Shown: positions 4,587 to 40,071 of the stretch, in pieces
Layout: the number at the start of each line of letters is the position of its first letter
Numbering within the stretch: the first letter of the stretch is position 1
IMG/VR virus record: IMGVR_UViG_3300024964_000005
Span: 1-40,071 of that record
Reading direction: 5' to 3' (one strand)
DNA from: a virus
Length of the DNA: 40,071 nucleotides
Translations under genes and position numbers: made by a program
Notes under the pieces: model-generated
Seen by the model: the letters and a program-made list of their open reading frames with translations, nothing else
The model's database searches: none
What the model was told of the DNA's origin: nothing

Positions 4587-4608
4587 TTCCCATCCCCTGC
4601 CGGTGCAC

Positions 4609-4630: not shown

Positions 4631-4643
4631 CACGCCCACCCGC

Positions 4644-4678
4644 GACGGGATTCCGACCACCCCCCGGCCGGACATTGC
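4644..4678 (+). promoter_or_regulatory. Bipartite late motif, copy A
   Basis: GACGGGATTCCGACC (4644-4658), 12 bases, then GACATTGC (4671-4678). Copies B (5887) and C (39899) match exactly with the same 12-base spacing, while the spacers differ in sequence; copy D (20490) keeps the left half and the spacing. This copy lies between a terminator and the start codon at 4684, so it is best read as a promoter or activator site. It has no sigma-70-like hexamers. Confidence 0.75.
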
Positions 4679-4683
4679 ACCCC

Positions 4684-4887
4684 ATGCAAGCCGCCCCCGC
4701 GCAGTACGTCCACACCTTCGACCTGACCAACGACGGCCGGGCCGTGCTGGACGATCTGGTGCGGCTGTTCGGCGGCCCGCCCTTTGCGCCGGGCCAGCCC
4801 GATCAGACGGCCTACAACTGCGGCGCCCGCGCCGTGATCGAACACATCCACGCGATGCTGGCTCAGGCCGAGCGGCCGCGCCCCTGA
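4684..4887 (+). CDS. Bbp19-like small phage protein
   Basis: A 67-residue protein resembling the small Bbp19 family of BPP-1-like phages: DGRAVLDDLVRLF, then a proline-rich turn, then a TAYNCGARAVIEHIHAMLAQA helix. The family role is not established to my knowledge; it lies between portal and capsid genes in such phages. The start codon comes only six bases after the right half of motif copy A, with no clear ribosome binding site. If transcription starts at that motif, the message would be very short-leadered or leaderless. Confidence 0.75.
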   Translation: MQAAPAQYVHTFDLTNDGRAVLDDLVRLFGGPPFAPGQPDQTAYNCGARAVIEHIHAMLAQAERPRP

Positions 4888-4957
4888 CACCCCGGGCGCG
4901 CATCGCTGCACGGCCCGGCGCGCGCTCTTGTGACCTGGCCCGCACAAGGAACACGCA

Positions 4958-5881: not shown

Positions 5882-5886
5882 TCGCA

Positions 5887-5921
5887 GACGGGATTCCGAC
5901 CGGGCGGGAGCGCGACATTGC
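5887..5921 (+). promoter_or_regulatory. Bipartite late motif, copy B (upstream of major capsid)
   Basis: GACGGGATTCCGACC (5887-5901), 12 bases, GACATTGC (5914-5921), starting six bases after the scaffold stop codon. It opens a 178-base gene-free leader ahead of the major capsid gene, the most highly expressed gene of such phages, which fits a promoter or activator role. Confidence 0.75.
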
Positions 5922-5937
5922 GCGCAGACCCGCCCGG
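5900..5937 (+). promoter_or_regulatory. Long hairpin in the capsid leader
   Basis: CCGGGCGGG (5900-5908) pairs perfectly with CCCGCCCGG (5929-5937). Inside, GCGC (5910-5913) pairs with GCGC (5920-5923), leaving GACATT in the apical loop. No T run follows, so it is not a standard terminator. The rest of the leader to 6059 shows only the capsid ribosome binding site (GAGG near 6050). It may act in the mRNA (stability or processing) or as DNA dyad; it is not obvious at the other motif copies. Confidence 0.5.
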
Positions 5938-6059
5938 CATGGCAGCCGGATACCGGGTGAACAGCCCGGCAGCGCGATCAACGCCAAACGCAGTTGCTGA
6001 ACAGCGGCCCGCAAGGACACCCGCGACACAGGCGAGACAGAACCTAACGAGGTCTCACC

Positions 6060-6959
6060 ATGTCCAGCTCTCCGACTATCACCACTGCATTCAAGCAGCA
6101 GTTCCACGACACCTACATCCAGGCGCTGCAGCAGAAGGATTCCCGCTTCCAGGCCGCGATCACCGACCGCGGCATGATCGACGGCAGTTCCTTCACGACC
6201 AACAACATCGGTCTGGTCGAAGCCCGCGAAGTCACGGGCCGCTACCAGGATAAGACGGCCCAAGAGGTGGCGCACGAAACGCGCATCGCCTACATGGCCG
6301 ACTACGACATCGGCCCCATCGTGGTCGACGCCTTCGACCTGGCCAAGCTGGTCGCCGATCCGACGTACAAGTACAAGGATCTGCTGCTGGCCGCTGCCAA
6401 TCGCCGCAAGGACAAGACCATCTATCGCGCGCTGCTCGACGGCTCGCTGACCCGCACCAGCGAGGGCGGCAGCGTCACCAGCACCGCGATCCCTTCGGGC
6501 CAGCAGATCGCAGCCGGTGGTACGGGCTTCACCAAGGCCAAGATCATCCAGGCCAAGTCGCTTTTCCGCATCAACGAAGCGGACGAGTTCAACGACGAAC
6601 AGCTGTACATGGCCTATGACGGCGTGATGCTGCGCCAGCTGCTGGCCGATACCACGCTGACCAGCGCCGACTTCATGGCCGTGAAGATGCTGCAGGAAGG
6701 CAAGCTGGCCGACCGCTGGTGCGGCTTCAACTGGCTGCCCTACAACGCGCTGGACGTTCCCGCGGCCAACACCTCGCGCTCGGTGGCCTGGGCCAAGAGC
6801 TGCCTGCAGTTCGGTACTGGCATCAACGTCAAGACCGACATCAGCGAGAACAAGAACAAGCGCGGCCATCCCAACGAGGTCTACGGCTGGATGTCGTTCG
6901 GCGCCACGCGCCAGGACGAAAAGAAGGTCGTGCAGATCGACTTCGCCAACAACGTCTAA
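6060..6959 (+). CDS. Major capsid protein
   Basis: A 299-residue coat protein, identified from its position between scaffold and cement genes and from its resemblance to podoviral coat proteins of the BPP-1 type. The N-terminal TTAFKQQFHDTYIQALQQKDSRFQ region, the LADRWCGFNWLPYNAL segment near residue 220 and the KTDISENKNKRGHPNEVYGWMSFGATRQDEKKV stretch near the end are typical of this coat class. A GAGG site precedes the ATG. It has its own leader with motif copy B and, with the cement gene, is closed by the terminator at 7494. This makes a self-contained, highly expressed two-gene unit. Confidence 0.88.
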   Translation: MSSSPTITTAFKQQFHDTYIQALQQKDSRFQAAITDRGMIDGSSFTTNNIGLVEAREVTGRYQDKTAQEVAHETRIAYMADYDIGPIVVDAFDLAKLVADPTYKYKDLLLAAANRRKDKTIYRALLDGSLTRTSEGGSVTSTAIPSGQQIAAGGTGFTKAKIIQAKSLFRINEADEFNDEQLYMAYDGVMLRQLLADTTLTSADFMAVKMLQEGKLADRWCGFNWLPYNALDVPAANTSRSVAWAKSCLQFGTGINVKTDISENKNKRGHPNEVYGWMSFGATRQDEKKVVQIDFANNV

Positions 6960-6992
6960 GCCATCGGCTGACACCAACCCAAGGAGAAAACC

Positions 6993-7457
6993 ATGGCTGA
7001 ATTTGACTCCCGCCAGATCACGGCACTTGCCGGAACGCCGAAGGTCAAGGCGAACCCCTACGACCACGGCCGCATCAACTGCCTGATCGCCACCACGCCG
7101 GCCGCGGCTGCCTGGGCGCAGAACGACACCTTCGAGATCGGCACGATTCCGAAGGGCGCGCGCATCCTGCGCTCGGGCAAGCTCTGGCACGGCGCCTTCG
7201 GTGCTTCCGTCACCATGACCATCGGCCTGCGCGATGCGGCCACTGGCACGGTGATCGACGCGGCTGGCCTGCTGGCCTCGGCTTCGGTCGCCACTGCTGG
7301 CCTGGTGAAGAACATCGACACCGGCACGCTGCTGAACCAGGCGAACGGCTATGTGACGACGGCCGACCTGGTGGTGTACGCCACGCTGGCCGGCGCTGAT
7401 CCGACCGACAACATCCAGGCCGAATTCGAGATCAATTACCTGGTCCCGAACAGCTGA
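6993..7457 (+). CDS. Capsid cement protein, Bbp16-like
   Basis: A 154-residue protein resembling the Bbp16-type cement (stabilisation) protein that binds between coat subunits on the outside of the shell in BPP-1-like phages. It is Ala/Gly/Thr-rich and beta-strand-rich, with FEIGTIPKGARILRSGKLWH near residue 48, a TMTIGLRDAATGTVID strand pair and the C-terminal IQAEFEINYLVPNS. A strong AAGGAG site precedes the ATG. It is co-transcribed with the coat gene and followed by a strong terminator. Cement proteins are usually made in amounts equal to coat. Confidence 0.8.
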   Translation: MAEFDSRQITALAGTPKVKANPYDHGRINCLIATTPAAAAWAQNDTFEIGTIPKGARILRSGKLWHGAFGASVTMTIGLRDAATGTVIDAAGLLASASVATAGLVKNIDTGTLLNQANGYVTTADLVVYATLAGADPTDNIQAEFEINYLVPNS

Positions 7458-7536: not shown

Positions 7537-7995
7537 ATGGCGAAGATGTATGCAAGCAGCGCCGAGAAGGTGCGCATCTGGAGGGAAAACAACCCAGAGG
7601 CCCATAGGGCGCACATTGCCAGTCGTGACAAGGACGCTTTGCGAGCCGCTCAAAAAAGATGGAGGGATAAGAATGTCCAAAGAGAGCGAGCGCGCGCATC
7701 TCAATGGGCCAAGGCAAACCCGGAAGCTGTCGCGCTGTCTGCATCCAGGAGAAGGGCGCAGCACAGGCTCGCCACTCCCGCATGGGCAGACAACCTATTG
7801 ATGCGCGACATCTACAAGTTGGCATCCATCTATCGGGAATATTGCTTTCCGGTTGAGGTCGACCACATCGTGCCGCTCAAAAGCAGCACCGTGTGCGGAC
7901 TTCACACCCAGGCAAATCTTCAGATCCTTCCATCCGTGGACAACAGCAGGAAGGGCAACCATTGGTGGCCTGACATGCCGGAGACGCATACATGA
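7537..7995 (+). CDS. Free-standing HNH endonuclease
   Basis: A 152-residue protein. The N-terminal half is basic, helical and rich in Arg/Lys/Ala (RAAQKRWRDKNVQRERARAS). The C-terminal half carries the HNH core: VEVDHIVPL near residue 107, then GLHTQANLQILPSVDNSRKGN. DH and the later Asn/His residues are the expected metal-binding and catalytic positions. Such enzymes are commonly homing-type elements in phage genomes. The gene sits directly behind the capsid terminator and overlaps the tail tubular A start by four bases. Its codon and base use is visibly less GC-rich than its neighbours, which suggests recent acquisition. Confidence 0.85.
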   Translation: MAKMYASSAEKVRIWRENNPEAHRAHIASRDKDALRAAQKRWRDKNVQRERARASQWAKANPEAVALSASRRRAQHRLATPAWADNLLMRDIYKLASIYREYCFPVEVDHIVPLKSSTVCGLHTQANLQILPSVDNSRKGNHWWPDMPETHT

Positions 7996-8594
7996 GCACT
8001 ACTCCCGTATCAATTTGCTCAAACGCCCTGCTGATGTTGGGCGACAACCCGATTGCGGATTTCAACGAGGACACCGACAAGGCGCGGCTGGCCTCCAACC
8101 TGTGGGACACGGCGCGCGATTACGTGCTGCGCCGGCACCCCTGGAACTGCGCCATCAAGCGCGTGATTCTGAGCCCGGACGCCACAGCGCCGGCCTTCGA
8201 CTTCAGTGCGCAGTTCCAGCTGCCCAGCGACTGGCTGCGCACGCTGTCCATCGGCGAAGAGGGCGAGCGGCCGCGCTACCGCATCGAGGGGCGCAAGGTG
8301 CTGATGGACGAGAACGCCTGCAAGCTGCGCTACATCTTCCGCAACGACAACCCGGCCACCTGGGACGCCATGCTGGTCTGGTGCATGACGCGGGTGATGC
8401 GCTCGCTGTTCGCCTACCCGATCACGCAGAGCACCAGCCTGGAACAGCTGATCGAGCAGGAACTGGTGCAGCTGCTGCGCGAGTCGCGCGCGGTGGATGG
8501 CCAAGAGGACGAGCCCGAGGCCTTCGACGAATCGCCGCTGATCGCGGCGCGCTCCATCGGCAGCAGCGGCTATTCGCCGTACCGCGGGGGCTGA
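7992..8594 (+). CDS. Tail tubular protein A, T7 gp11-like (adaptor)
   Basis: A 200-residue protein matching the T7 gp11-like adaptor that sits under the portal. Family-like features are the N-terminal SICSNALLMLGDNPIADFNEDT, the RLASNLWDTARDYVLRRHPWNCA segment near residue 35, and FQLPSDWLRTLSI near residue 75. The C-terminus is Gly/Ser-rich. The ATG overlaps the HNH stop (ATGA), so translation may be coupled to the invading gene. The nozzle protein follows five bases later. Confidence 0.9.
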   Translation: MSTTPVSICSNALLMLGDNPIADFNEDTDKARLASNLWDTARDYVLRRHPWNCAIKRVILSPDATAPAFDFSAQFQLPSDWLRTLSIGEEGERPRYRIEGRKVLMDENACKLRYIFRNDNPATWDAMLVWCMTRVMRSLFAYPITQSTSLEQLIEQELVQLLRESRAVDGQEDEPEAFDESPLIAARSIGSSGYSPYRGG

Positions 8595-8598
8595 CAGC

Positions 8599-10818
8599 AT
8601 GCCGCGCGTCACCCTTGCCCAGACGGCCTTCACGGGCGGCGAGCTGTCGCCGCGCGTGCTGGGCCGCACCGACATGGACCGCTACCAGTTCGGCCTGAAG
8701 AAGTGCCGCAACGCGCACCCGGTCATCCACGGCGGCTTCAAGCGGCGCGCCGGCACGCTGCACGCGGCCACGGCCACCACCAGCGCGGCCAGTGGCTCCA
8801 TCCTCGTGCCCTTCGTGCAGGGCCGCAATCAGTCCTGGATGATCGAATTCGGCGACCTGACGGCCAAGGTCTACAACGCCGACGGCACGTTCTCGGGCGT
8901 GACGCTGGCCACTCCGTACACTGGCGCCACGCTGTCGCTGCTGGACTGGGCGCAGAGCGACAGCACTCTGTGGCTGTTCCACCCGACCGTGCCGACCCAG
9001 CGCCTGCAGCGGCTGGGGTCTGGCACCTGGGTGCTGAGCGCTGCCCCGTTCACGCAGGTGCCGTTCTCCGAAGTGGGGTTCGTGGCAGCAGCCTCGGCCA
9101 CGCTGTCGGCCGCGACGGTGGGTGTGGGCCGCACGCTGACCGCTGGCGCCGCTACCTTCCTCGCGTCGGATGTGGGCCGCGCCGTCACCTACGACGCGGG
9201 CATTGCCGTCATCACCGGCTACACCAGCACGACCGTCGTCACGGTGGAGATCACCCGGGACTTCCCCAGCACCAGCCTGCCGGCCAATGCCTGGACGGTG
9301 GACAGCAGCCCGCAGACCACCTGCACGCCCAGCGCCAAGGACCCCGAGGGCGCGGCCATCACGCTCACCCTCGGCGCGGCCGGCTGGCGCGCGGCAGACG
9401 TCGGCGCCATCGTGCGCATCAATGGCGGGCTGTGCCGGATCACCGGCTATTCGTCGGGCACGGTGGTCAATGCCGTGATCCTCAAGGAGTTGACCGCGAC
9501 CGTGGCCGCGCCCGCGCTGTCGTGGAGCCTGGAGCCGCCGATCTGGTCAGCGACCTATGGCTATCCCCGCACCGGCACCATCCACCAGCAGCGCCTCGTG
9601 GCGGCCGGCAATACCAAATTCCCGCGCACGGTGTGGGGCTCGGTGCTGGGCGAGCAGCTGAACTTCCAGCTCGGCACTGGCGACAGTGACGCCTTCGCTT
9701 TCACCATCGACGGCGACGACGCGACCCCCATCAGTTATGTCAGCGCAGGCCAGGACCTCGTGGCGCTCACCGAGTCGGGCGAATACAGCATGCGCAGCGG
9801 CGTGGAGAAGCCCATCACGCCCACCAATGTCCGCATCAAGCCCGAGAGCGGCCACGGCACGGCCCAGGTGCGGCCCGCGCAGGTGAACCGCGAAACCGTG
9901 TTCGTGCAGCGCGCCGGGCGCAAGGTGCGCGCCTTCGGCTACCGCTACGACTTCGACGCCTACAACAGCCCCGACATCGCAGCGCTGGCCGAGCACATCA
10001 CCTATGGCGGCATCACGGCGCTGGCCTACGCCCAGGAGCCCGAGCAAATGCTGTGGGGCGTGCGCGCAGATGGCAAGCTCGTGAGCTGCACCATTGACCG
10101 CGACCAGCAGCCCAGCGTGATCGCATGGGCGTTGCACGAAACGGACGGCACGGTGGACAGCCTGGCCATCATCCCGAATGGCGACCGCGAGCAGGCTTGG
10201 GTGATCGTGCGCCGCTTCGTGAACGGCGCCTATGTGCGCTACATCGAGCGCCTGGACGACACCTTCGCGCCGCACCTCAACGACCCGAGCATCGTCTACG
10301 GCACGACGGTGGACAGCGGCAAGGTGTTCGACAACCCGACCGGCGCCACGACTTTCAGCGTTCCGCACCTGGCGGGCAAGACGGTCGACATCGTGGCCGA
10401 CGGCTCAAAGATGCCTCGCAAGGTGGTGGCCAATGACGGCACCGTCACCATCGAGCGGCCGGGCAAGCGCGTGCTGATCGGCCTGCCGTTCTCCAGCTAC
10501 GGCACGCTGCTGACGCCCGAGGTGCAGACCGGCTTCGGCAGCGCCCAAGGCCAACCGGCGCGCACCGGCAAGACCATGATGCGCTTCCTCGACACCATCG
10601 GCGCCGTGGTGCAGAACAACGCCGGCAACAAGCAGATCGTGCCGTTCCGTCAGTTCGGCTCTGACGTGCTGGACGCGGCACCCATGCCCTTCACCGGCCT
10701 GATCGATATATCCCTGCTGGGCTGGGAGCGCGGCGACTCCGAGGTGACGGTGTACCAGGACGACCCGATGCCCATGCATGTGCTGGCTGTCGTGCGGCAG
10801 CACACCATCAACGGGTGA
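8599..10818 (+). CDS. Tail tubular protein B, T7 gp12-like (nozzle)
   Basis: A 739-residue tail nozzle protein. The N-terminal TAFTGGELSPRVLGRTDMDRYQFGLKKCRNAHPVIHGGFKRRAGT region is diagnostic of the gp12-like family in non-T7 podoviruses. Later segments such as NRETVFVQRAGRKVRAFGY and VTVYQDDPMPMHVLAVV also fit. The length agrees with the family (700-800 residues). The gene follows the adaptor gene, the standard order. The protein forms the distal tail tube and supports fibre attachment. Confidence 0.9.
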   Translation: MPRVTLAQTAFTGGELSPRVLGRTDMDRYQFGLKKCRNAHPVIHGGFKRRAGTLHAATATTSAASGSILVPFVQGRNQSWMIEFGDLTAKVYNADGTFSGVTLATPYTGATLSLLDWAQSDSTLWLFHPTVPTQRLQRLGSGTWVLSAAPFTQVPFSEVGFVAAASATLSAATVGVGRTLTAGAATFLASDVGRAVTYDAGIAVITGYTSTTVVTVEITRDFPSTSLPANAWTVDSSPQTTCTPSAKDPEGAAITLTLGAAGWRAADVGAIVRINGGLCRITGYSSGTVVNAVILKELTATVAAPALSWSLEPPIWSATYGYPRTGTIHQQRLVAAGNTKFPRTVWGSVLGEQLNFQLGTGDSDAFAFTIDGDDATPISYVSAGQDLVALTESGEYSMRSGVEKPITPTNVRIKPESGHGTAQVRPAQVNRETVFVQRAGRKVRAFGYRYDFDAYNSPDIAALAEHITYGGITALAYAQEPEQMLWGVRADGKLVSCTIDRDQQPSVIAWALHETDGTVDSLAIIPNGDREQAWVIVRRFVNGAYVRYIERLDDTFAPHLNDPSIVYGTTVDSGKVFDNPTGATTFSVPHLAGKTVDIVADGSKMPRKVVANDGTVTIERPGKRVLIGLPFSSYGTLLTPEVQTGFGSAQGQPARTGKTMMRFLDTIGAVVQNNAGNKQIVPFRQFGSDVLDAAPMPFTGLIDISLLGWERGDSEVTVYQDDPMPMHVLAVVRQHTING

Positions 10819-18584: not shown

Positions 18585-18943
18585 TGCGACCAGACCAACT
18601 TCAAAAGCTGCAGGAACTGAGCGAGCGCCTGGCCGATTCCTTCCTGCTGGAGGCCGACCCGGCAGAGTGGCCTGGAAAAGGCAAGGGGCCCGTAGACCTG
18701 ACCCAGCAGGAGCGCGGCGACCGCTACTGGTGCAAGAAGAACGCCATGGCCACGGGCGGCGTGTTGCGCTTCACGCTGGACCTGATGGGTAAGCACCAGA
18801 CCGGCAGCACGCCACCGGCCGAAGAAGACGCCGACATGGATAAGCGCATCAAGGAGGCCGAGCGCCGGGCCGCCGAAGCCACGAAGCGCGTGCTGGGAAA
18901 GGCCAAGGCCGCCTTCGACAAGAGGGTGCATGGGAAAGGTTAG
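18581..18943 (+). CDS. Small terminase subunit (probable)
   Basis: A 120-residue protein directly before, and overlapping, the large terminase gene. It starts with tandem ATGs (18581, 18584). The sequence is helical and charged, with RLADSFLLEADPAEWPGKGK, a QQERGDRYWCKKNAMATGGVLRFTLDLM core near residue 40 and a basic, Ala/Lys-rich C-terminal helix. T7-type small terminases have this size and place and recognise the packaging DNA. The assignment rests on gene order and general character. Confidence 0.72.
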   Translation: MMRPDQLQKLQELSERLADSFLLEADPAEWPGKGKGPVDLTQQERGDRYWCKKNAMATGGVLRFTLDLMGKHQTGSTPPAEEDADMDKRIKEAERRAAEATKRVLGKAKAAFDKRVHGKG

Positions 18944-20579
18944 TTTCCCCACGTTCTTCGCGCTGTGGGCCGAGGAACAGCGCTGGGACGTGCCCGACAT
19001 CCACTGGCGCGCGGTGCACTGGCTTGAGAACCGCGAGCGCCTGGCGGTGCTGCGCTGCTTTCGCGGCTTCGGCAAGTCCACGCTGCTGGCCGTCTACAAC
19101 GCCTGGCGCTACTACGACGACCCGACCTACCGCATCCTGCACCAGGGCGACCAGGACAAGACCGCGCACAAGACCAGCCGGGACACGAAGGCGGTGCTGG
19201 CGCGTCACCCTCTCACCCGCGACACCTTTGCCAACGGCATGCGTGGTGAGGCCTCTTTCTGGTGGGCGCCGGGCTCTGTGGACGAACGCAATCCGTCCAT
19301 GCAGGCGGCCGGCATCACCAGCAACATCACTAGTTCGCGCTGCGACGAAGCGCAGAACGATGACGTGGAGGTGCCCAAGAACATCACCAACCCGGAGAAC
19401 CGGGAAAAGATGCGCTACCGCCTGGGCGAGCAGGTGCACTGCATGGTGCCGGGCGCGCGGCAGCTGTTCATCGGAACGCCGCACACGCACGACTCCCTCT
19501 ACGACGAAATGGAAGCCATGGGTGCTGACTGCCTGACCATTCGCATGTTCGCCCGAGAGCACCGCATTAAGAAGGCGACCAAGCGCGAATACGCGCTGCC
19601 ATTCGTGCCCGAGTTCGTGCTGTCCGGCATCGGCAAGGGGGCCCGCGCGCTGAAGCCAGGCAAGGACTACACCATGCGCGGCCGCACCCTGGTGCTGGCC
19701 AGCGCCACGGGCGCGCTGATCGACTGCTACAGCGGCAGCAGCTGGCCCGAGCGCTTCACGCTGGAGGAGATGGAAAGCCGGCGCCAGCGCACGCGCACCA
19801 TCAACGAGTGGGACAGCCAGTATCAGCTGCACAGCAAGCCAACCCACGATGTGCGCCTGAACCCTGACCGCATGGTGCCCTACGAGGTAGAGCCGGTCTG
19901 GAAGACGGCCAACGGGCAGGCCGTGATGCTGCTGGGCGGCGTGCGCATCGTGGCGGCCAGCTGCCGGTGGGACCCATCCAGCGGAAAGCTCAAGTCCAAT
20001 GTGTCGGCCGTGGCCGTGGTACTGCAGGACGAGAGCGGCCGGCGCTACCTGCACCGCATCGTGCGCCTGACTGGCGATGTGGCCGAGTTCGACGCCGACG
20101 GCAAGACCATCATCGGCGGCCAGGTGCATCAGCTGGTGGATCTGGTGGAGTCGCTGCGGCTGCCGCGCGTAACCATCGAAACCAACGGCATCGGCAAGTT
20201 CTCGCCGGCCATCCTCAAGGGGGCGCTGAAGCAGCGCAAGCTGATCTGCGGCGTGGCCGAAGACATCAGCACCACGAAGAAGAACAAGCGCATCCTGGAA
20301 GCCATGGAGCCACTGCTGACCAGCGAGGATCAGCTGTGGGCGCATGTGTCGGTGCTGGACGGCCCTCTGCCGGCGCAGATGCGCGACTGGAACCCGGCCG
20401 TGCAGGAGCAGCCCGACGACTACCTGGACGCCGCAGCCGGCGCGGTATCCGAAACCCCCGAGCGCATCATGCGCGTCGTCGCTCCCGCTGACGGGATTCC
20501 GACCGGCACCCCGGCAGACAGTTGGCGCCCATCAAGTGGCGTGCACGAGATCGAACTAGAAACCGGGTTCATTGACTGA
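18930..20579 (+). CDS. Large terminase subunit, T7 gp19-like
   Basis: A 549-residue packaging motor. An ATPase P-loop is visible as RGFGKST at residues 45-51, followed by ILHQGDQDKTAHKTSRDTK and ITSSRCDEAQNDDVEVPKN, where DE is the likely Walker B acid pair. The region FIGTPHTHDSLYDEM near 180 is typical of the coupling motif. The C-terminal nuclease half includes TIETNGIGKF and the QPDDYLDAAAGA segment near 505 that is conserved in T7-type terminases. The 3' end carries bipartite motif copy D in frame (residues 521-532). Confidence 0.93.
   Translation: MGKVSFPTFFALWAEEQRWDVPDIHWRAVHWLENRERLAVLRCFRGFGKSTLLAVYNAWRYYDDPTYRILHQGDQDKTAHKTSRDTKAVLARHPLTRDTFANGMRGEASFWWAPGSVDERNPSMQAAGITSNITSSRCDEAQNDDVEVPKNITNPENREKMRYRLGEQVHCMVPGARQLFIGTPHTHDSLYDEMEAMGADCLTIRMFAREHRIKKATKREYALPFVPEFVLSGIGKGARALKPGKDYTMRGRTLVLASATGALIDCYSGSSWPERFTLEEMESRRQRTRTINEWDSQYQLHSKPTHDVRLNPDRMVPYEVEPVWKTANGQAVMLLGGVRIVAASCRWDPSSGKLKSNVSAVAVVLQDESGRRYLHRIVRLTGDVAEFDADGKTIIGGQVHQLVDLVESLRLPRVTIETNGIGKFSPAILKGALKQRKLICGVAEDISTTKKNKRILEAMEPLLTSEDQLWAHVSVLDGPLPAQMRDWNPAVQEQPDDYLDAAAGAVSETPERIMRVVAPADGIPTGTPADSWRPSSGVHEIELETGFID
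20490..20524 (+). promoter_or_regulatory. Bipartite late motif, copy D, inside the terminase gene
   Basis: GACGGGATTCCGACC (20490-20504) is an exact match to the left half of copies A-C. After 12 bases comes GACAGTTG, which keeps GACA and TTG of the right half. It is inside the terminase reading frame, 85 bases before the tailspike start, so it is well placed to drive the tailspike-lysis block. Confidence 0.62.
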
Positions 20580-20583: not shown

Positions 20584-20609
20584 TGCGCGCCCTCACAGCG
20601 AGGCGCGCA
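20584..20609 (+). promoter_or_regulatory. Hairpin covering the tailspike ribosome binding site
   Basis: TGCGCGCC (20584-20591) pairs perfectly with GGCGCGCA (20602-20609). The second arm includes the GG of the GAGG ribosome binding site and ends on the A of the tailspike ATG. The loop is ten bases. Such a structure would slow initiation unless opened by translation arriving from the terminase stop 5 bases upstream of the stem. Confidence 0.6.
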
Positions 20610-23008
20610 TGTCCGTCACAGCACAAACCCCCGTCAACAGCTACACGGCCAACGGCGCCACCACCGAATTCCCGTTCGCGTTCACGATCCTGGACAGCGC
20701 CGACCTCAAGGTCAAGGTGGCGGGGATCTTCAAGACCGAGGGCACCGACTACACGGTAACGGGTGTCGGCAACCCGAGCGGCGGAAGCATCATCTTCACG
20801 ATGCCCCCGGACAACGGCCTGACCGTGCAGGCCTACCGCTCCACCCGCATCCTGCGCGAGACTGACTACCAGGAGAACGGAGACCTCCCGGCCAGCACCG
20901 TCAATCTGGACTTCGACCGCCTCTGGTACGCCCTGCAAGAGCTGCTGGCCGGCCTGTTCGGCGATGCGCCGACGCCGGGCGATGCCACCGACTTGCTGGC
21001 CCGGCTGATCAACCAGGCGAGCGCGCTGGATGGCGCCGGCATCGTGGGCTACAACCCCGCGCTTTCCTATGCCGCTGGCACCGTCGGCGCCGCGCTGCGC
21101 GCCACGGCTGGCGGCCCGGGCTTCATCCGCCTGAAGGCCGACGCCGGGTGTGTGGGCGACGGCGTGGCCGACGACACGACCGCCATCCGCGCGGCCATCG
21201 CTACCGCTGCAGAGGGCGCCACCCTGGTGTGCGATGGCCTGTTCCGCATCACCGACACCCTGGTGGTGAACAAGCGGGTCAGCTTCCACTGCTTCGGCGC
21301 CGATGCGGGTATCTTGGTGGAGGTGGGCACAGCCAAGGATGGCATCGTGTTCTACGGCACGAACCCCGTCTACCTGAACGGCTTGAACGGCCTATCGATC
21401 CAGCTGAACGTCTACGGCCGGGCCAACGCCTGCCGCGATGCGGTGGTGATGAAGCGCGTCGACCGCTCGCGCATCTTCCTCAACATCCGCGCGGGCGCGA
21501 CCGACTACGGCCTGCGCATCCGCGGCTGCCTGATCAACAACTGGCACATCGAGAGCACGACCAACTATGCGCCGCCGATCAGTTCGTGGGGCACGCAGTA
21601 CCACCACATGGTCGTCGAAAACTTCGGCGTGCCGCTGGTCGCCAAAGGCACGTGCTCGATCAGCAACGCGACGCCCGCGGTGTGCACCTTCACCAGCCAC
21701 GGGCTGTCGGCAAACGACTGCGTGGTGTTCAACGGCACCGTGCCCAGCGGTGTGGTGGAGGGCAAGCCGTACTACGTGCTTTCCACCAGCCTGACCGCCA
21801 ACACCTTCAAGTTCAGCGCCACCCTGGGCGGCACCGCGGTGAACACCACCAGCAGCGCCTCGCCCACGCTCAGCACGGCCTCGCCCGTGGCCACCAACAC
21901 CAACCGCTTCTGGCTGAACCTGGAAGGCTGCCACGACGGCTACCTGCAGACGGCCATGCCGGGGGAAGGGCAGAACACCATCGCTGGCGAGATCGAGGGC
22001 CTGGCCGGCAATCCGTTGTACGTCGAAGAGTGCAAGGCCTTCCACTTCGGCGACGTGAAGATGGAGGCGAACGCGGGCAACTGCTTCATCCGCGGCGCCG
22101 AGTCGCTGCAGGTGGGCCCCGCGGTGCTCAACTACCCATCGGGCCCGGCCCTGCTGCAGCTGCGCAACTGCAAGGGCTACACCATCGACGGCTACTACGG
22201 TTCGCTGGACATCGACAACAGCAACCAGGGCGGCCGGATCGGCAATGTGGCCTCGCCGAACATCAGCAGCAACATCATTGCCGACCGATCGGCCGAGCAG
22301 AGCGCGCCCATCAGCAACGCGCTGGACACGACGGTGTTTGCGGGCGGTCCGGGTGCTTCGTCGATGGTGAACCTGTTCAGCAATCCGTACCTGGATCTGT
22401 GGGCGCAGTCGGGCAGCGGCGCACCGCCGATTGGCACGACGTCGCCGTCGGTGCTCGTGAACCGCGTCACCAGCCCGGTCTATCCGGGCAACCCGAATAT
22501 CTACAGCTGCCGCGTCACGACCGACTCGGCCACCATCAATTCCGGCCTGGTGTTGGCACCCTCGTTCAACCCGATCCAGAACGACAACTACATCAGCGTG
22601 CTGGTGCCGGTCTATGTGGCCACAGGTCAGCCCGGCGTCTCGGTGTACTTGCACGATGGCGTGAACTACCACCTGATCTTCGCCGACACCACGACGAAGG
22701 ATCAGTGGATGGAAGTGCGCGGGACCATCAAGCACATTGCGGGCAACAACTTCAAGATCTACATCGCCACCTGGAACGGCTCCGGCTATCCGTCAGGTGC
22801 ACAGTTCTACGTCGGCGGCTGCAGCATGGTCTACGGCGCGGTGCCGCCCAAGACCATCGACGACAGCGGCCGGCGCCGGGCCAACATCATCAGCGTGACG
22901 ACCTACGCGCCCGACTTCGTGGGCCAGATCGCCAAGACGGGAGCCGGCGACCTCTATATGGCCAAGGACACCTCGGCCAACACCGACTGGCTGAAGATCT
23001 CGCCGTGA
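20609..23008 (+). CDS. Tailspike with T7 gp17-like anchor and beta-helix domain
   Basis: A 799-residue receptor-binding protein. Residues 1-110 match the T7 gp17-type N-terminal anchor (TPVNSYTANGATTEFPFAFTI; STRILRETDYQENG; LDFDRLWYALQEL). Near residue 174 a pectate-lyase-like beta-helix begins (RLKADAGCVGDGVADDTTAIRAAIATAAEGATL), the usual entry to tailspike depolymerase domains. A jelly-roll-like section follows near 590-730 (PNIYSCRVTTDSATINSGL; SVLVPVYVATGQPGVSVYLHDG), then a small C-terminal domain. It probably binds or cuts a surface polysaccharide. It is followed almost directly by the lipoprotein gene. Confidence 0.9.
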   Translation: MSVTAQTPVNSYTANGATTEFPFAFTILDSADLKVKVAGIFKTEGTDYTVTGVGNPSGGSIIFTMPPDNGLTVQAYRSTRILRETDYQENGDLPASTVNLDFDRLWYALQELLAGLFGDAPTPGDATDLLARLINQASALDGAGIVGYNPALSYAAGTVGAALRATAGGPGFIRLKADAGCVGDGVADDTTAIRAAIATAAEGATLVCDGLFRITDTLVVNKRVSFHCFGADAGILVEVGTAKDGIVFYGTNPVYLNGLNGLSIQLNVYGRANACRDAVVMKRVDRSRIFLNIRAGATDYGLRIRGCLINNWHIESTTNYAPPISSWGTQYHHMVVENFGVPLVAKGTCSISNATPAVCTFTSHGLSANDCVVFNGTVPSGVVEGKPYYVLSTSLTANTFKFSATLGGTAVNTTSSASPTLSTASPVATNTNRFWLNLEGCHDGYLQTAMPGEGQNTIAGEIEGLAGNPLYVEECKAFHFGDVKMEANAGNCFIRGAESLQVGPAVLNYPSGPALLQLRNCKGYTIDGYYGSLDIDNSNQGGRIGNVASPNISSNIIADRSAEQSAPISNALDTTVFAGGPGASSMVNLFSNPYLDLWAQSGSGAPPIGTTSPSVLVNRVTSPVYPGNPNIYSCRVTTDSATINSGLVLAPSFNPIQNDNYISVLVPVYVATGQPGVSVYLHDGVNYHLIFADTTTKDQWMEVRGTIKHIAGNNFKIYIATWNGSGYPSGAQFYVGGCSMVYGAVPPKTIDDSGRRRANIISVTTYAPDFVGQIAKTGAGDLYMAKDTSANTDWLKISP

Positions 23009-23851: not shown

Positions 23852-24232
23852 ATGCGCCACCTTCTCGCCCTCATCTTAGCCCTGGCCATGTCCAGCCCAG
23901 CAGCAGCGGCAGACGCCTCGCGCGGCCCGCTGGACTACCCGCTGAAGCAGTACGGGCTGATGCTCGGAATCGCCATTCTGGGCGGCGTGGTGAGCTGGTA
24001 CGGCAAGGTGCGCAGCGGCGCAATCCAGGCCGTCTCGGTCATGCAATTCGTCGGCGAGATCTGCACCAGCGCCTTCGCCGGGCTGCTGGCCTTCTGGGTA
24101 GCTGAGTGGGCCGGCACCCCGGCCATGCTGCAGGCAGCTCTGGTGGGAATCGCCGGGCACATGGGCACCAAGGCCATCAGCGCCTTGGAGGAATTCGCGC
24201 AGCAGCGCCTGAACCAGAAAGGCCAATCATGA
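23852..24232 (+). CDS. Holin, LydA-like (superfamily III)
   Basis: A 126-residue protein with a signal-like N-terminus (MRHLLALILALAMSSPAAAA), then three hydrophobic segments: about 34-52 (GLMLGIAILGGVVSWYG), 71-88 (TSAFAGLLAFWVAEWAG) and 92-106 (MLQAALVGIAGHMG). The C-terminus is charged and helical (SALEEFAQQRLNQKGQ). This layout fits LydA-like phage holins, which form pores timing lysis. The stop overlaps the endolysin ATG (ATGA). ATG 23852 is two bases after the lipoprotein stop. Confidence 0.85.
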   Translation: MRHLLALILALAMSSPAAAADASRGPLDYPLKQYGLMLGIAILGGVVSWYGKVRSGAIQAVSVMQFVGEICTSAFAGLLAFWVAEWAGTPAMLQAALVGIAGHMGTKAISALEEFAQQRLNQKGQS

Positions 24233-24654
24233 TCACCCTCTCCGACTACTTCATGGGCCGGCGCGAGCAGTACCCGCTGCAGTGCTCGACCGAGATCGAG
24301 CGCAACGCGGTGATGATCGTCGGCCTGGCCAATGCCTTGATGACCCAGGCCGAGACCTACGGCGTGCGCTTCCAGATCAATCCACGCACCGGCAGCTTCG
24401 TCAGCAGCGGATGGCGGCCGGCTTCGATCAACGAACAGACGCCCGGCGCGGCCGTGAACTCGAAGCATATGACCGGCCAGGCGGTTGACCTGTACGACCC
24501 TGACGGCGAGTTGGACGACTGGCTGATGACCGGGGAAGGCCAGGCGGCGCTGACGGCGATTGGGCTGTGGATGGAAAACCCGGGCTCGACCAAAGGCTGG
24601 TGCCATGTGCAGTCCATTCCACCGCGGTCTGGTAAGAGGGTGTTCTATCCATGA
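24229..24654 (+). CDS. Endolysin, M15-type D-Ala-D-Ala/L-Ala-D-Glu peptidase
   Basis: A 141-residue zinc peptidase. Signature elements are SGWRP near 60-64, SKHMTGQAVDLYD at 78-90 and GWCHVQ at 123-128. His80, Asp87 and His126 are the expected zinc ligands of the M15 family. It has no signal peptide, so it depends on the upstream holin to reach the cell wall. It overlaps holin and Rz by four bases on each side. Confidence 0.9.
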   Translation: MITLSDYFMGRREQYPLQCSTEIERNAVMIVGLANALMTQAETYGVRFQINPRTGSFVSSGWRPASINEQTPGAAVNSKHMTGQAVDLYDPDGELDDWLMTGEGQAALTAIGLWMENPGSTKGWCHVQSIPPRSGKRVFYP

Positions 24655-25300: not shown

Positions 25301-25377
25301 CTGCCCATAGCTCAACTGGATAGAGCAGCGGCCTTCTAAGCCGCAGGTTCCGGGTTCGATTCCTGGTGGGCAGGCCA
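25301..25377 (+). tRNA. tRNA-Arg (anticodon UCU)
   Basis: A complete 77-base cloverleaf. The acceptor stem is CTGCCCA/TGGGCAG, with D arm GCTC/GAGC, anticodon stem GCGGC/GCCGC with loop CTTCTAA (anticodon TCT), T arm CCGGG/CCTGG with TTCGATT, discriminator G and encoded CCA at 25375-25377. It reads AGA/AGG codons, which are rare in this GC-rich genome. The integrase stop on the other strand abuts the CCA, the classic arrangement for a phage that integrates at a tRNA 3' end. The complete gene may be functional or may rebuild the host gene after integration. Confidence 0.93.
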
Positions 25378-26391
25378 TCACCTCGACGGCTTCACGCGCT
25401 TGTGATACTTGCCCTCGACGTAGTGGCGGGTCATGCCTTCTGACTTGTGGCCGAGAAGCTTCTGGGCGGCCTTGATGTCTTCCTCGCCCTCGTCATCAAG
25501 CAGCGCATCCACACCGGCCCGGCCGCGCAGATCGTGGATGTTGAGGTCTTCGATGCCTGCTCGCTCGCATAGGCGCTCCCAGCTGCTGCGCAGTCCGCCG
25601 TAGGTGTACCCGGTTCCGCGTTCTGACTTCAGGACATGGCCGATCTTGTCCCCGTTCTTTCCGCAGGCCGCGATTGCAGCGCGCAGGGCAGGGGACCACT
25701 TCACCAAAAGCTTTGTGCGGCCCTGGCCCTTACCCTGGTCAAACAGTATCCCGGCGGGCGTTACATCCTGCCAGCGCAGCCGTATTACGTCGCCGATTCT
25801 CTGGCCGGTGAGCATGGCCAGCTCGATCATCTGCACCAGTGCCCGCCCATTGCGCGGCTGCTTCAGGGCTGCAGACTTCAGCGCCGAAACCTCCGCGTCG
25901 GTGACGACACGATGCCGACCAGGCGTCTTCCGGCGCGGCACGTCGTCCACGGGGTTTGCGCCGTCCCGTAGCCCTTCCAGGGCCGCAAATGACAGCACCT
26001 GGCGCAGCATGGTTCGGTGCAGGTTATAGGTTCTGGCCTGCTTGGTGAATGCCTTCAGGTATGAGGCGCATAGTGGCGTTGTCACCTGGGCCGGGCGGAT
26101 CTCGTCAAACTCGCCCGCCATGTGATCTGCGATGCGCTTCTGATCGTCCTTGGTCTTCTCTGCCGACCAGTCGCCCGACTCGACCTTGCTGTCGTACCAG
26201 CGAGAGATCACGGCCGGCATCCGATCCTTGACCACATCAGCATCAACGAAGGCGGCCAGCGCCCTGTACATGGCAGGAAGCCCGTCCTTCTCCGCGCACA
26301 GGCGCACCCATTTGTTTTCGAGTGTGACCAAGTAGTAGGCGCTGTGCTTGAGGTAGACCCTCGGCGGGAGGCCTGAGTTCTTGCGGATCAT
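25378..26391 (-). CDS. int: Tyrosine recombinase / phage integrase (tRNA-proximal)
   Basis: A 337-residue tyrosine recombinase. An N-terminal arm-binding part (about 1-60, YYLVTLENKWVRL) precedes a SAM-like core-binding domain (about 60-150) and a catalytic domain with R198 (LTGQRIGDVIRL), a Lys near 221-227, H286 and R289 (HDLRG), H315 (LLGHKS) and nucleophile Y324 (TRHYV). All catalytic positions are present. The gene ends at the tRNA 3' end, so it is the best candidate for the enzyme acting at this attP. Its ATG overlaps the stop of the DUF4224 gene (ATGA). Confidence 0.93.
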   Translation of the reverse strand: MIRKNSGLPPRVYLKHSAYYLVTLENKWVRLCAEKDGLPAMYRALAAFVDADVVKDRMPAVISRWYDSKVESGDWSAEKTKDDQKRIADHMAGEFDEIRPAQVTTPLCASYLKAFTKQARTYNLHRTMLRQVLSFAALEGLRDGANPVDDVPRRKTPGRHRVVTDAEVSALKSAALKQPRNGRALVQMIELAMLTGQRIGDVIRLRWQDVTPAGILFDQGKGQGRTKLLVKWSPALRAAIAACGKNGDKIGHVLKSERGTGYTYGGLRSSWERLCERAGIEDLNIHDLRGRAGVDALLDDEGEEDIKAAQKLLGHKSEGMTRHYVEGKYHKRVKPSR

Positions 26392-26621
26392 GCTGCTGTG
26401 CGGAGCTTTCGTTGCGACCTAAGAAGGGGCGTGTCATTGGCGGCTGGTGCTTCCCGGCCAGCGCAGACGGACTCAAAGTGTGCGCGCTCGAGCACGACAG
26501 CGCCAGCGACATTGCGGCGGGCCCTGTAGAACCCCTGCTTTCGAAGGGCCTCGAGCTGTGCGGCCGGCTGGATGTAGCCGGTCAGCTCCTTCAGTTCTTC
26601 CGGGCTGAGTGTCAGGCTCAT
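26388..26621 (-). CDS. DUF4224 family protein
   Basis: A 77-residue protein matching the DUF4224 pattern: SLTLSPEELKELTGYIQPAAQLEALRKQGF. It contains a probable helix-turn-helix and sits, as in other phages, immediately upstream of and overlapping an integrase gene. A directionality or integrase-accessory role is likely but unproven. It overlaps by four bases with the recombinase genes on both sides, so the three should be translated as a coupled set. Confidence 0.85.
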   Translation of the reverse strand: MSLTLSPEELKELTGYIQPAAQLEALRKQGFYRARRNVAGAVVLERAHFESVCAGREAPAANDTPLLRSQRKLRTAA

Positions 26622-27655
26622 GCGCTCATCCTTTCCGAGGCTGGCAATTGATCGTTGGCCGAAACCTGCTTCCACTCGCCATCTGTCAGGCCTCGGTCGT
26701 TCAGGTAGACGGCGGTCATCTCGGCATCCTTGTGGCCGAGCAAGGTCTGCACAGTGGCGGCGGCCATGCCCTCGGCGATGTAGGTCCGGGCGCTGAGCGA
26801 GCGCACCTCGTGAAGTGATGGCCACTCGTATTGCTTGTAGGCGTCCTTGCCGCAGGCCTGCACGATGAGTTCGCGGAAGCGTGCCGACAGGCTGGACATC
26901 TCGATGGGCTTGCCGTTTGCCTTGCGCAGCAGCGTGTCGCCCGGGGCGCCGATGCCGCGGCAGTGCTCGATCACCTCGCCGAGCGTCATGCCGGTGCACT
27001 GCAGGCGCAGCGTGAGCGGGATAGCCACGCGGGCGCCGGTCGGCTTGCCGGCCTTCTTTTGCTGCTCGACCCTCAAGCAGCCGTCCACCACATCATCGAA
27101 ACGCATCTTTGCCAGGTCGGCGCGGCGCTGGCCGGTGGCCAGGGCCAGCAGCAGCATCGCGGGCACCCAGCGCTGCCGGCTGTGCCTGGCGAGGTTGAGC
27201 ATGGCCTGCCATGTGTCCAGCGTCAGCCGCTTGCGCAGCCCGGGTGCCTTGGGGCGCTTGACGTGGGCGGCCGGGCTGGACTCGGCGGCGCCGTTGGCTA
27301 TGGCCTCCACGTAGCAGTCCCTTAACTCACCCAGCACGCGGACGGCGGTGTGCGGGCTCCACTGCTTGAGCGCGGTGGAGATGTCGACCGGGCGCACCGC
27401 GCGCAGCGGCATCGAGCCCCAGGCTGACTCTATGTGGTTGATCGACGTGGTGCGGTTCTTCAATGTCTGCGCGTGGTAGCCGCGCTGGCCGATGATCGTG
27501 CGGTAGGTCGCCAGCCACTCGGCCATGGTCGGGCCGTTGACCGGCGCCGGGTCGTTGGCGGCCGGCTTCGAGACGGGCTCTCCTGCGGGCAGTTGCATCA
27601 CGGCGAGCTGCTGCAGGGCCTGCTTCAGGAGCTTCTTGATCTTGCGTTTTTTCAT
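26618..27655 (-). CDS. Second tyrosine recombinase
   Basis: A 345-residue tyrosine recombinase distinct from the integrase at 25378. A basic N-terminus (MKKRKIKKLLKQ) precedes a core-binding domain (about 43-130) and a catalytic domain with TGQRRADL (R177/178), Lys near 200, HEVR (H282, R285), LLGHKD (H308) and Y317 (TAVYLNDRG). Catalytic residues look intact. The start ATG lacks a clear ribosome binding site; the longer frame upstream overlaps another gene and is unlikely. Two full recombinases in one phage is uncommon. Confidence 0.9.
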   Translation of the reverse strand: MKKRKIKKLLKQALQQLAVMQLPAGEPVSKPAANDPAPVNGPTMAEWLATYRTIIGQRGYHAQTLKNRTTSINHIESAWGSMPLRAVRPVDISTALKQWSPHTAVRVLGELRDCYVEAIANGAAESSPAAHVKRPKAPGLRKRLTLDTWQAMLNLARHSRQRWVPAMLLLALATGQRRADLAKMRFDDVVDGCLRVEQQKKAGKPTGARVAIPLTLRLQCTGMTLGEVIEHCRGIGAPGDTLLRKANGKPIEMSSLSARFRELIVQACGKDAYKQYEWPSLHEVRSLSARTYIAEGMAAATVQTLLGHKDAEMTAVYLNDRGLTDGEWKQVSANDQLPASERMSA

Positions 27656-27699
27656 GGGTGTGTGGTTGTTCTGTTCTGTCGGCAGAGGTATGGGAAACC

Positions 27700-27915
27700 T
27701 CAGAACGGCGCCGGCCCGGCAGCGTCGGAGTCCTTGCGAAGCCCGCACTTTCCGCAGATGAACTCGCCCCGTCGCAGCGCTTCCACCTCGGCCTGCAAGC
27801 GACGAAGCACGGTTAACGCCTCTTCCAGGTTCACACGGGCGCCCGAGTCCTCGTGCCAAATCAGGTCTAGTGCTGCGGCCAGCCGTTCGGCGTCCGGGGT
27901 TTTCTTGAGGGTCAT
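27700..27915 (-). CDS. Small protein with C-terminal zinc-binding CxxC
   Basis: A 71-residue protein with a GGAG site seven bases before the ATG. The N-terminal 45 residues form charged helices (DAERLAAALDLIW; NLEEALTVLRRLQAEVEALRRG). The end has FICGKCGLRKD, a half zinc-ribbon. Function unknown. It is the most promoter-distal of the small leftward-operon genes before the recombinases. Confidence 0.7.
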   Translation of the reverse strand: MTLKKTPDAERLAAALDLIWHEDSGARVNLEEALTVLRRLQAEVEALRRGEFICGKCGLRKDSDAAGPAPF

Positions 27916-27942
27916 TGCGTTCTCCGTCGGCAGGGGATGGGA

Positions 27943-28140
27943 TCAGGCGTCGGCTTCGGTTTCCAACTCGGCCTTGACGCGGACAAGCGCGTCCATCAGC
28001 CAAGCCAGGTCGGTCGCGTCAAATTCAATGCCGTGGCCGTGGCGCTCGAACTCAATCACTGAGCCCTCCAGGCGCACGGCTGACTCGACGCCGCTGTCGT
28101 CGGAGTAGCGCTTCTCGAAAGCGAGCTTGGTTGCTCTCAT
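27943..28140 (-). CDS. Small hypothetical protein
   Basis: A 65-residue acidic protein with an AAGGA ribosome binding site. The first half looks like beta strands (VESAVRLEGSVIEFERHGHGIEFDATD), the second like one helix (LAWLMDALVRVKAELETEADA). No recognised domain. It belongs to the leftward early operon. Confidence 0.68.
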   Translation of the reverse strand: MRATKLAFEKRYSDDSGVESAVRLEGSVIEFERHGHGIEFDATDLAWLMDALVRVKAELETEADA

Positions 28141-32953: not shown

Positions 32954-33345
32954 GACTCCACCCCGCTCGCCATATCGCCCGCGTGGTAGTTCGCATGGAT
33001 GGCCGACACAAAGCCCACCCACACCACAGCCCGGTGCGTGACCTGCTCGCCGCGCGCAGCAGCGGACACGATGCTCAGCAGGTCGCCAAGCGCCAGGTCG
33101 CCATGGCTGCCGGCGAAGAGGTCGGAGAACAGATCCACGACGCTCATCTGCTGCGTGCCGCCCAGCTTGTCGGCATAACCCGGCGTGCTCACCAGGGCTT
33201 TGCGCAGGTCCGGGGCCGCCAGCGCGTTACGCAGCTCGTTGGCCAGCAGGATGTAGCAGGCCTCTTGCGTGGCCTGGGCCTTCTCGATTCGGTCGGCGGC
33301 GCGGTTCTCGGCGCGGCTGACGAGGCAGGGGATGGCGGCGTTCAT
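32950..33345 (-). CDS. Hypothetical early protein
   Basis: A 131-residue, mainly helical protein (NRAADRIEKAQATQEACYILLANELRNALAAPDLRKAL; SVVDLFSDLFAGSHGDLALGDLLSIVSAA). No known domain. It overlaps genes on both sides by four bases and is the second gene of the leftward early operon. Confidence 0.7.
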   Translation of the reverse strand: MNAAIPCLVSRAENRAADRIEKAQATQEACYILLANELRNALAAPDLRKALVSTPGYADKLGGTQQMSVVDLFSDLFAGSHGDLALGDLLSIVSAAARGEQVTHRAVVWVGFVSAIHANYHAGDMASGVES

Positions 33346-33884
33346 GCTGCCACCTCATCCGCGACGCGTGCCGGTGACCACACGCCGGTTTCAACCAGGC
33401 GCAAGAAGCGCTGAGCAAACCCGTCCCTGGCAGCGTCCCTGGCAGCGGCCCTGGCAGCGTCCCAGGCAGCGTCCCAGGCAGCGGCCCTGGCAGCGGCCCA
33501 GGCAGCGGCCCAGGCAGCGGCCCTGGCAGCGGCCCAGGCAGCGGCCAACTCATCATCAGTTGCAGTGCCCTCGGCATGCTGGCGTGCAACCACGAGCGCT
33601 TGCAGGCTGCGCTCATCGGTCATCAGGTGCTTGACCGTCTCGGCGCAGTCCACTGCGAAGTGGCGCCACAGCGATGCGTGCTGGGGCTCGGCCCGGCAGC
33701 ACCACAGCGCGTCGTCGAGGCCGTTGCTTTCCAAGATCACCGAGAACGGCAAGGGCTCGTCGTCGGCCTTGGTCTTGCCCAGGTGCTTGAGCAACTTGGC
33801 CCAGCCCTCCGAGCACGGCGAGTGCTCGCGGATGCGGTTCAGGGTCGTGGTGATCGGCCCGGCTTGTGTCTCTGTATGTCCCAT
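33342..33884 (-). CDS. First leftward early protein with Ala/Trp repeat helix
   Basis: A 180-residue protein, first gene after the leftward promoter, with an AAGGGGA ribosome binding site. The first 110 residues are an ordinary folded region (LNRIREHSPCSEGWAKLLKHLGK; LPFSVILESNGLDDALWCCRAEPQHASLWRHFAVDCAETVKHLM). Residues about 115-155 are four-residue repeats of the form AAWA/AARA/AAWD/AARD, coded by a 12-bp tandem repeat. These would form a long Ala-rich helix with Trp, Arg and Asp at regular positions. Related repeats occur in other phage proteins of unknown role. Confidence 0.75.
   Translation of the reverse strand: MGHTETQAGPITTTLNRIREHSPCSEGWAKLLKHLGKTKADDEPLPFSVILESNGLDDALWCCRAEPQHASLWRHFAVDCAETVKHLMTDERSLQALVVARQHAEGTATDDELAAAWAAARAAAWAAAWAAARAAAWDAAWDAARAAARDAARDGFAQRFLRLVETGVWSPARVADEVAA
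33421..33546. repeat. 12-bp tandem repeat array inside the first leftward gene
   Basis: About ten copies of a 12-base unit, GGCAGCG(T/G)CCC(T/A) on the plus strand. Units differ only at two positions, which switch the coded residues between Trp/Arg and Ala/Asp. Copy number is likely to vary by slippage without breaking the frame. Confidence 0.88.
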
Positions 33885-33917
33885 CGCTGTCCCCTTGGGG
33901 TGGTGTCGATGGGTTGA

Positions 33918-33958
33918 ATACTCACACATGTGTGTGAGACTGTCAACACAAATGTGAG
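33918..33958 (-). promoter_or_regulatory. Leftward early promoter with operators
   Basis: On the minus strand TTGACA (33946-33941) is followed after 17 bases by GAGTAT (33923-33918), a plausible sigma-70 promoter for the leftward operon. Operator-like sites with the CAC-N4-GTG core overlap it: CTCACACATGTGTG (33921-33934) and AACACAAATGTGAG (33945-33958). They share the half-site with the three sites at 35023-35089. Confidence 0.7.
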
Positions 33959-39463: not shown

Positions 39464-39612
39464 GCGTCACATGCAAGCCCGTCGGGCGCGGCAACTGGTC
39501 GCCCCTGGTGCTGACCTACGCCGGCCCGCAGATGGCGCCCTTCGTCGTGCGCGTCGGCGAGCAGTTCAACCTGGCCGGCATCGTCTGGCGTGTTTGCAAG
39601 GTGGAAGCGTGA
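39460..39612 (+). CDS. 50-residue small protein
   Basis: A TTG-start ORF overlapping the previous stop (TTGA) and the following GTG (GTGA). The sequence is beta-like (SPLVLTYAGPQMAPFVVRVGEQFNLAGIVWRVCKVEA). Exact coupling on both sides supports translation. Function unknown. Confidence 0.6.
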   Translation: MSVTCKPVGRGNWSPLVLTYAGPQMAPFVVRVGEQFNLAGIVWRVCKVEA

Positions 39613-39899
39613 ACCAGCCCAACCTCACCCTGACCCGCACGCGCCGCATCGACTGGGCGCGCATCCTCGAAAACCTGCAGAAGGCCGGCATGTCAATGCA
39701 GCAGATCGCCGACGCAGTGGAGTGCGGCAAGTCCACGCTGTACGGCTACACCAACGAGGACTTGACCAGCGAGCCGGCCTACTGGGTGGGCCACTGCCTG
39801 GTGGCGCTGTGGGCGACGAAGTGCGGCGCCAGGCTGCAGGATGTGCCGATCAAGACCGTGCAGCTGTCGGTCTCGGCGATGCTGAAGGACATGGCCTAG
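39609..39899 (+). CDS. Small HTH protein, candidate late regulator
   Basis: A 96-residue protein with a GTG start. Residues about 15-50 form a helix-turn-helix (WARILENLQKAGMSMQQIADAVECGKSTLYGYTNED), resembling resolvase/XRE-type motifs. It is the last gene of the rightward early operon, and the final base of its stop codon is the first base of bipartite motif copy C. This is the position of lambda Q or other late activators. Its link to the motif is inference from position. Confidence 0.75.
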   Translation: MNQPNLTLTRTRRIDWARILENLQKAGMSMQQIADAVECGKSTLYGYTNEDLTSEPAYWVGHCLVALWATKCGARLQDVPIKTVQLSVSAMLKDMA

Positions 39900-39933
39900 A
39901 CGGGATTCCGACCCCGACCGAGGGCGACATTGC
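39899..39933 (+). promoter_or_regulatory. Bipartite late motif, copy C (start of the late region)
   Basis: GACGGGATTCCGACC (39899-39913), 12 bases, GACATTGC (39926-39933). It lies between the last early gene and the first late gene (ATG at 39989, the same as 48). This is the position expected for the main late promoter. Confidence 0.77.
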
Positions 39934-39945
39934 GGGCACTCAACC

Positions 39946-40071
39946 CCCGGCCAGCGCGCCGGCAGCCCGCAAGCAAGGAGCCCAGAAGATGGCCAAGCAG
40001 CCCACCCGCGTCCCCGGCGCACCCTCCGAAGCCGCCAGCACTCCGATCCCGGCCAGCGCGCCGGCAGCTGG
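39946..40071. repeat. Right copy of 126-bp terminal direct repeat
   Basis: Identical to 5-130. The upstream sequence here (ending caac ccc) is the natural junction because it continues from motif copy C without a break. The true circular genome length is therefore about 39,941 bases. Confidence 0.85.
39989..40071 (+). CDS. Duplicate 5' part of the first late gene, cut by window end
   Basis: This is the start of the same gene as 48-278, seen again because of the terminal overlap. Only the first 27 codons are inside the window. It is not a second gene. Confidence 0.85.
   Translation, partial: MAKQPTRVPGAPSEAASTPIPASAPAA

Follow-up and report, generated by a model that had tools for sequence, protein, structure and literature searches.

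A bipartite motif that recurs ahead of the late gene blocks of a phage genome raises the question of what it does and which factor reads it. We addressed this question for the element located at positions 39899 to 39933 of a 40,071-nt stretch of viral DNA, hereafter called the window. The window is a complete, circularly closed genome of a temperate podovirus of about 39.9 kb, the ends of which overlap slightly: a 126-bp terminal direct repeat is found at 5-130 and again at 39946-40071. According to PHROGs, the portal gene lies at 704-2341, tail protein genes at 7992-10818, TerL at 18930-20579, the tail fibre gene at 20609-23008, and the endolysin gene at 24106-24654. The plus strand carries the replication genes as well as a repressor-like gene at 35107. 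Two different integrase genes lie side by side on the minus strand (25301-28003), the first of them next to a tRNA-Arg, a probable attP; an identical tRNA-Arg sequence occurs in a Comamonadaceae genome, suggesting that the host belongs to this family. Within a minus-strand ORF (33342-33929), positions 33398-33589 form an array of roughly twelve 12-bp repeats (CGGCCCWGGCAG). A near-identity search with the first 25 kb of the window against phage records returned no match.

Scanning the window for GACGGGATTCCGACC-N12-GACATTGC returned exact matches at 4644, 5887, and 39899, as well as a weaker copy at 20490 in which the left half is exact and the three mismatches all fall in the right half. All four are on the plus strand, as the preliminary description had reported. 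The pattern was never found in 100 dinucleotide shuffles of the window; no copy is expected by chance. These copies, hereafter A (4644-4678), B (5887-5921), C (20490-20524), and D (39899-39933), had been said to precede the scaffold block, the major capsid gene, the tailspike-lysis block, and the first late genes, respectively, and both the gene assignments and the circular closure agree with this. As the genome closes on itself, copy D does precede the first late genes: an ORF at 39989, which is position 48, followed by the portal gene. This copy begins at the third base of the stop codon that ends a helix-turn-helix (HTH) regulator gene. Copy A is followed by a plus-strand Bbp19-like ORF (4684-4887; PF25181, E=1.7e-12) and by a scaffold ORF. 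Downstream of copy B is the major capsid gene (6060-6959, plus strand, phrog_3437), and copy C, located within the 3'-terminal part of TerL, lies ahead of the tail fibre gene and the lysis genes. Copy A indeed sits between a terminator and a start codon: an intrinsic terminator (AGCCCAC-TTCG-GTGGGCT-TTTT, 4609-4630, plus strand), identified by eye and by a local scan, lies directly upstream of it, and the ATG is at 4684. Terminators directly precede four sites, copy A and the capsid sites of three relatives, under a rule that 0.4% of random positions also pass.

Searching viral contigs with the capsid and the HTH protein yielded more than 25 related loci; the capsid of the named Yersinia enterocolitica phages YeP4-YeP6 is about 50% identical. 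We collected 28 sites from 15 related records, which are not phylogenetically independent. The element consists of a 14-bp dyad, the centre of which is usually GATT, followed by 12 bp, a six-base -10-like box, and a putative start 7 bp further on in these 28 sites, except for 11 bp at one site; in some records (G004, L017, and L080) the site was placed by synteny and by eye, with the box offset left untuned save at the single 11-bp site. It recurs ahead of late genes at equivalent positions in the 15 records, the outcome that the preliminary description had proposed to look for. Three positions are shared with the relatives: between the small HTH gene and the portal block, as for copy D (8 records including the window); in the scaffold-capsid gap, as for copy B (13 records); and within the TerL 3' end, ahead of the tail fibre gene, where dyad and box are found at the place equivalent to copy C in 6 records. 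Copy A, before the Bbp19-like and scaffold ORFs, is an extra copy in the window. The exact window pattern had no match in viral contigs. A relaxed pattern based on the dyad core gave matches, and the DNA pattern scan of all viral contigs returned 14 stretches, 13 of them within this clade. The capsid profile detected no relatives in bacterial genomes, and the HTH profile was too variable for scanning. No such element was found in BPP-1, in which the Bbp19 gene is present, and none was seen ahead of the capsid gene in G007 (capsid 38% identical), Piluca, or TPWB-05. The cultured Yersinia phage YeP5 (L080) has the same arrangement as the window. Ahead of its lysis genes, YeP5 also has the dyad GGTCAGGATTCCGACC together with a strong TAAAAT box (L080:379-412); the arms of this dyad are unlike those of the other YeP5 sites.

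The geometry of the element resembles that of a promoter. Positions 2 and 6 of the box are A and T in all 28 sites (offset +27), versus a mean of 0.58 out of 28 at other offsets. The box is otherwise poor as a -10 element, with a C at the third position and without the T that is usual at the first. Seven base pairs past the box, a purine is found in 19 of 21 head and capsid sites (8 of 8 at the copy D position), with a pyrimidine at -1 in 17 of 21. In copy D, the dyad spans 39899-39912, the box (GACATT) 39926-39931, and the putative start is the A at 39938. The box of copy B is at 5914-5919 and its putative start is the A at 5926; the corresponding positions for copy A are 4671-4676 and 4683-4684, and copy C has the box GACAGT at 20517-20522. 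As the predicted start of copy A falls on or beside the ATG at 4684, this transcript may be leaderless. In the window copies A and C, and in all TerL copies, the nominal +1 is a C; the TerL copies are constrained by coding. When +1 is set at the start-like purine, the box extends from -12 to -7 and the dyad from about -39 to -26, with its centre at -32.5, the place of the -35 hexamer. No sigma-70 -35 hexamer is present at the element about 17 bp upstream of the box (the central bases are GGATTC), and a sigma-70 promoter scan of 4000-7000 found none. The earlier statement that there are no sigma-70-like hexamers holds for the -35; it needs correcting for the right half, which is not TATAAT yet keeps the key A and T of a -10 element. 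Nine genomes or contigs were scanned whole, each with its own dyad, and no dyad with box was found on the minus strand; the occurrence at random strands and places that would have spoken against a promoter was not seen.

The relative G008 (L078, about 870-920) is informative in this respect. In place of the dyad before the capsid gene, it carries TTGATG-N17-TATACT, the -10 of which is aligned to the box, and it is the only relative with a -35 hexamer at this place. At its TerL end, G008 has lost the dyad together with the last T of the box. The near-consensus sigma-70 promoter at the position of the box supports the box as a -10 element, with the dyad compensating for the missing -35. Moreover, the operator is kept before late units and is common to all copies of a genome, as is characteristic of activator-dependent phage late promoters. 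Judged from these sequence comparisons, the four-copy signal very probably switches on the virion and lysis genes. The preliminary description had also argued from the lack of a phage RNA polymerase, and we found no match to an RNA polymerase family in any of 30 window ORFs scanned. Its proposal of a late promoter used by host polymerase together with a phage factor is strongly supported by the comparison, through the 15 records, the single strand, the -10-like and start-like signatures, and the sigma-70 promoter of G008.

Which protein would read the dyad? Dyads are 96% identical within a genome versus 71% at the same site across genomes; spacers are 31-47% identical. For instance, G002 has GCCGG/CCGGC arms at three sites, and G004 has GCAGAGATTTCTGC at all three of its sites (arms GCAGA/TCTGC). 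That the dyads are alike within a genome and different between genomes points to a trans-acting protein. The candidate late activator is a 96-aa HTH protein encoded at 39609-39899 on the plus strand, from a GTG start that overlaps the upstream stop codon, by the last gene before the late region. In most records, its gene stops on the first copy or a few bases short of it; the exceptions are L012 and YeP5, with a longer gap, and G005, in which the copy overlaps the end of the gene. In G010 (L073-L075), the early genes of the window continue up to the HTH start codon (junction after p77) and are followed by unrelated late genes and an unrelated terminase module, and this switch at the HTH start indicates that the HTH gene belongs to the late module.

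The protein also changes with the dyad. The window and L010, which have the same dyad, differ at 2 of 18 residues in the HTH versus 26 of 64 outside (p=0.024), whereas G002 and L096, which have different dyads, differ at 12 of 18 HTH residues versus 15 of 72 elsewhere (p=3.5e-4); L096 was found through the DNA pattern alone. G005 and L096, both with GTCGG arms, have SKSxVI in common in their recognition helices. In a partial Mantel test given portal distance, on few genomes, the recognition helix correlates with the dyad (r=0.46, p=0.026). The whole 18-residue HTH region gave no significant Mantel correlation (p=0.22), and helix 1 correlates with the dyad better than the recognition helix does. 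The AlphaFold2 model of the protein (mean pLDDT 81.6) has a fair XRE-like fold, and its best PDB matches are XRE proteins, with weak E-values of about 0.04-0.1 and high probability. Because signal and protein change together across relatives, the 96-aa XRE-like HTH protein is probably the reader of the dyad.

We conclude with good confidence that the element is an activator-dependent late promoter for host RNA polymerase whose dyad operator is read by this protein. The preliminary description had included neither this phage factor, nor the dyad nature of the left half, nor the right half as a degenerate -10. From conservation, geometry, strand, position, concerted change of the copies, and covariation with the HTH protein, we infer binding, activation, and start sites as follows. 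The left half would be a 14-bp dyad operator at the -35 position bound by the HTH protein, and the right half a degenerate -10 (N-A-N-N-N-T) too weak to act alone without a -35 hexamer. Transcription would start at the purine 7 bp downstream of the box. Early transcription would produce the HTH protein, which would then jointly activate the four late units: portal, scaffold, capsid, and tail-fibre/lysis.

An alternative sigma factor or another host or phage factor might read the promoter in place of the HTH protein, which is a candidate factor, and the non-consensus box is compatible with this. We regard it as unlikely, since, in the records that cover it, the HTH gene is located a short distance upstream of the first copy; it is also part of the late module, as seen in G010, and encodes a protein that covaries with the dyad. 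The element could also act in the transcript, as two hairpins with GATT and GACATT loops resembling the antitermination sites put of HK022 and nut of lambda, or as a translational operator. Its confinement to one strand fits an RNA, in some relatives the left half forms a 5-bp stem whose arms are altered (GTCGG/CCGAC, GCCGG/CCGGC, GCAGA/TCTGC), and several capsid copies have a second stem around the box. However, in all four window copies the left-half hairpin keeps an A:A mismatch and has a folding probability of at most 0.02, the second stem is missing at most head and fibre copies, and the fixed N12 takes no account of stem geometry. The stable hairpins conserved in every copy that mark put or nut sites were not found, nor was a match in Rfam. 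The concerted change of the copies within a genome and the sigma-70 promoter of G008 at the same place also argue against an RNA element, which we consider quite improbable.

A dyad over the -35 would also suit a repressor, and the XRE-like fold is typical of repressors; the HTH protein or another repressor would then block polymerase at the dyad. But with no -35 hexamer and a poor -10, these promoters would be near silent without help, and the dyad-less G008 has a near-consensus promoter, which fits a dyad that makes up for a weak promoter. Negative control is very improbable. Finally, a dispersed repeat, a packaging or replication signal, or a coding coincidence (DGIPTxxxxDIA, the element's spacing being divisible by three and the copy in TerL being coding in that frame) is extremely improbable given the differing spacers, the restriction of the sites to the start of late units, the synteny, and the box signature, and the coding reading was dropped because the other three window copies lie between genes.

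An activator-dependent promoter of this kind can be compared with known late switches. In phage lambda, the last regulator gene before the late region, Q, turns on the late genes via one antiterminated promoter. In APSE, antitermination operates at the early-late junction (PMC8579659). The HTH gene is likewise the last regulator before the late region; here, however, there are several separate promoter copies and an HTH protein. The predicted fold resembles that of XRE/Cro-C1 regulators such as lambda CI, C.AhdI, SinR, and Aca1 (weak E-values, high probability), which differ in gene context; the HTH protein would have its role in late activation. Mu has four C-dependent late promoters with non-consensus -10 and -35, at which the site of a small dimeric phage activator overlaps the promoter (PMC4461284). 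The likeness lies in the four copies and in the overlap of weak late promoters with the site of a phage activator, here a candidate one. The HTH protein has no detected sequence relation to C, as the Pfam scan matched generic HTH families only and not Mu Mor/C; the operator differs, and the dyad here is centred on the -35 position. In the middle promoters of T4, an example of sigma appropriation, the MotA box replaces the -35, is centred at about -30, and lies 12 +/- 1 bp from the -10; MotA binds a non-palindromic box as a monomer and needs AsiA and an excellent -10 (PMC2988021). Common to both systems are a phage box in place of the -35 and a similar spacing from the -10. Here, in contrast, the phage box has dyad symmetry, the -10 is poor, and the protein is XRE-like; neither a MotA box (TGCTT core) nor a consensus -10 was found. 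The element would work like the Mu C or T4 MotA promoters and is a member of neither by sequence.

Copy B is associated with a further feature. The predicted start at 5926 is the first base of a conserved structured leader of the capsid mRNA of about 130 bases (5926-6059, plus strand). Its central helix shows two-sided changes in six pairs, and its covariation score is 0.226, versus 0.111 when shuffled and no more than 0.067 after sliding of the partners. A ten-leader covariance model matched YeP5 (L080; E about 7.5e-9) and L023-L026. The leader RNA is seen in the window, L023, L024, L025, L026, L067, and L080, and has no match in Rfam. In the window (5902-5937), the beginning of the leader (CCCGCCC) is the complement of the spacer of the capsid copy (GGGCGGG), and similar pairing is found in several relatives. 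RNA that reads through from the scaffold gene could thus adopt another fold than RNA initiated at the promoter.

In the open-licence literature, we found no description of late promoters or of late-gene switch-on in this podovirus group, in which the usual Q-type or polymerase-type late switch is not seen. A more elaborate scheme can be proposed only tentatively: a dimer of the XRE-like protein may replace sigma region 4 at the -35 and let host polymerase use the degenerate -10, the specificities of protein and operator may switch together so that every phage has a late-promoter code of its own, and transcription of the capsid gene may begin precisely at the structured leader, which would add a second layer of control. 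The analysis names a candidate protein, operator, -10, and start base for each late unit. The natural specificity pairs (GACGG, GTCGG, GCCGG, and GCAGA arms) provide material for following the joint change of a regulator and its full set of sites and, as YeP5 is in culture with the same arrangement, the system is open to direct test.
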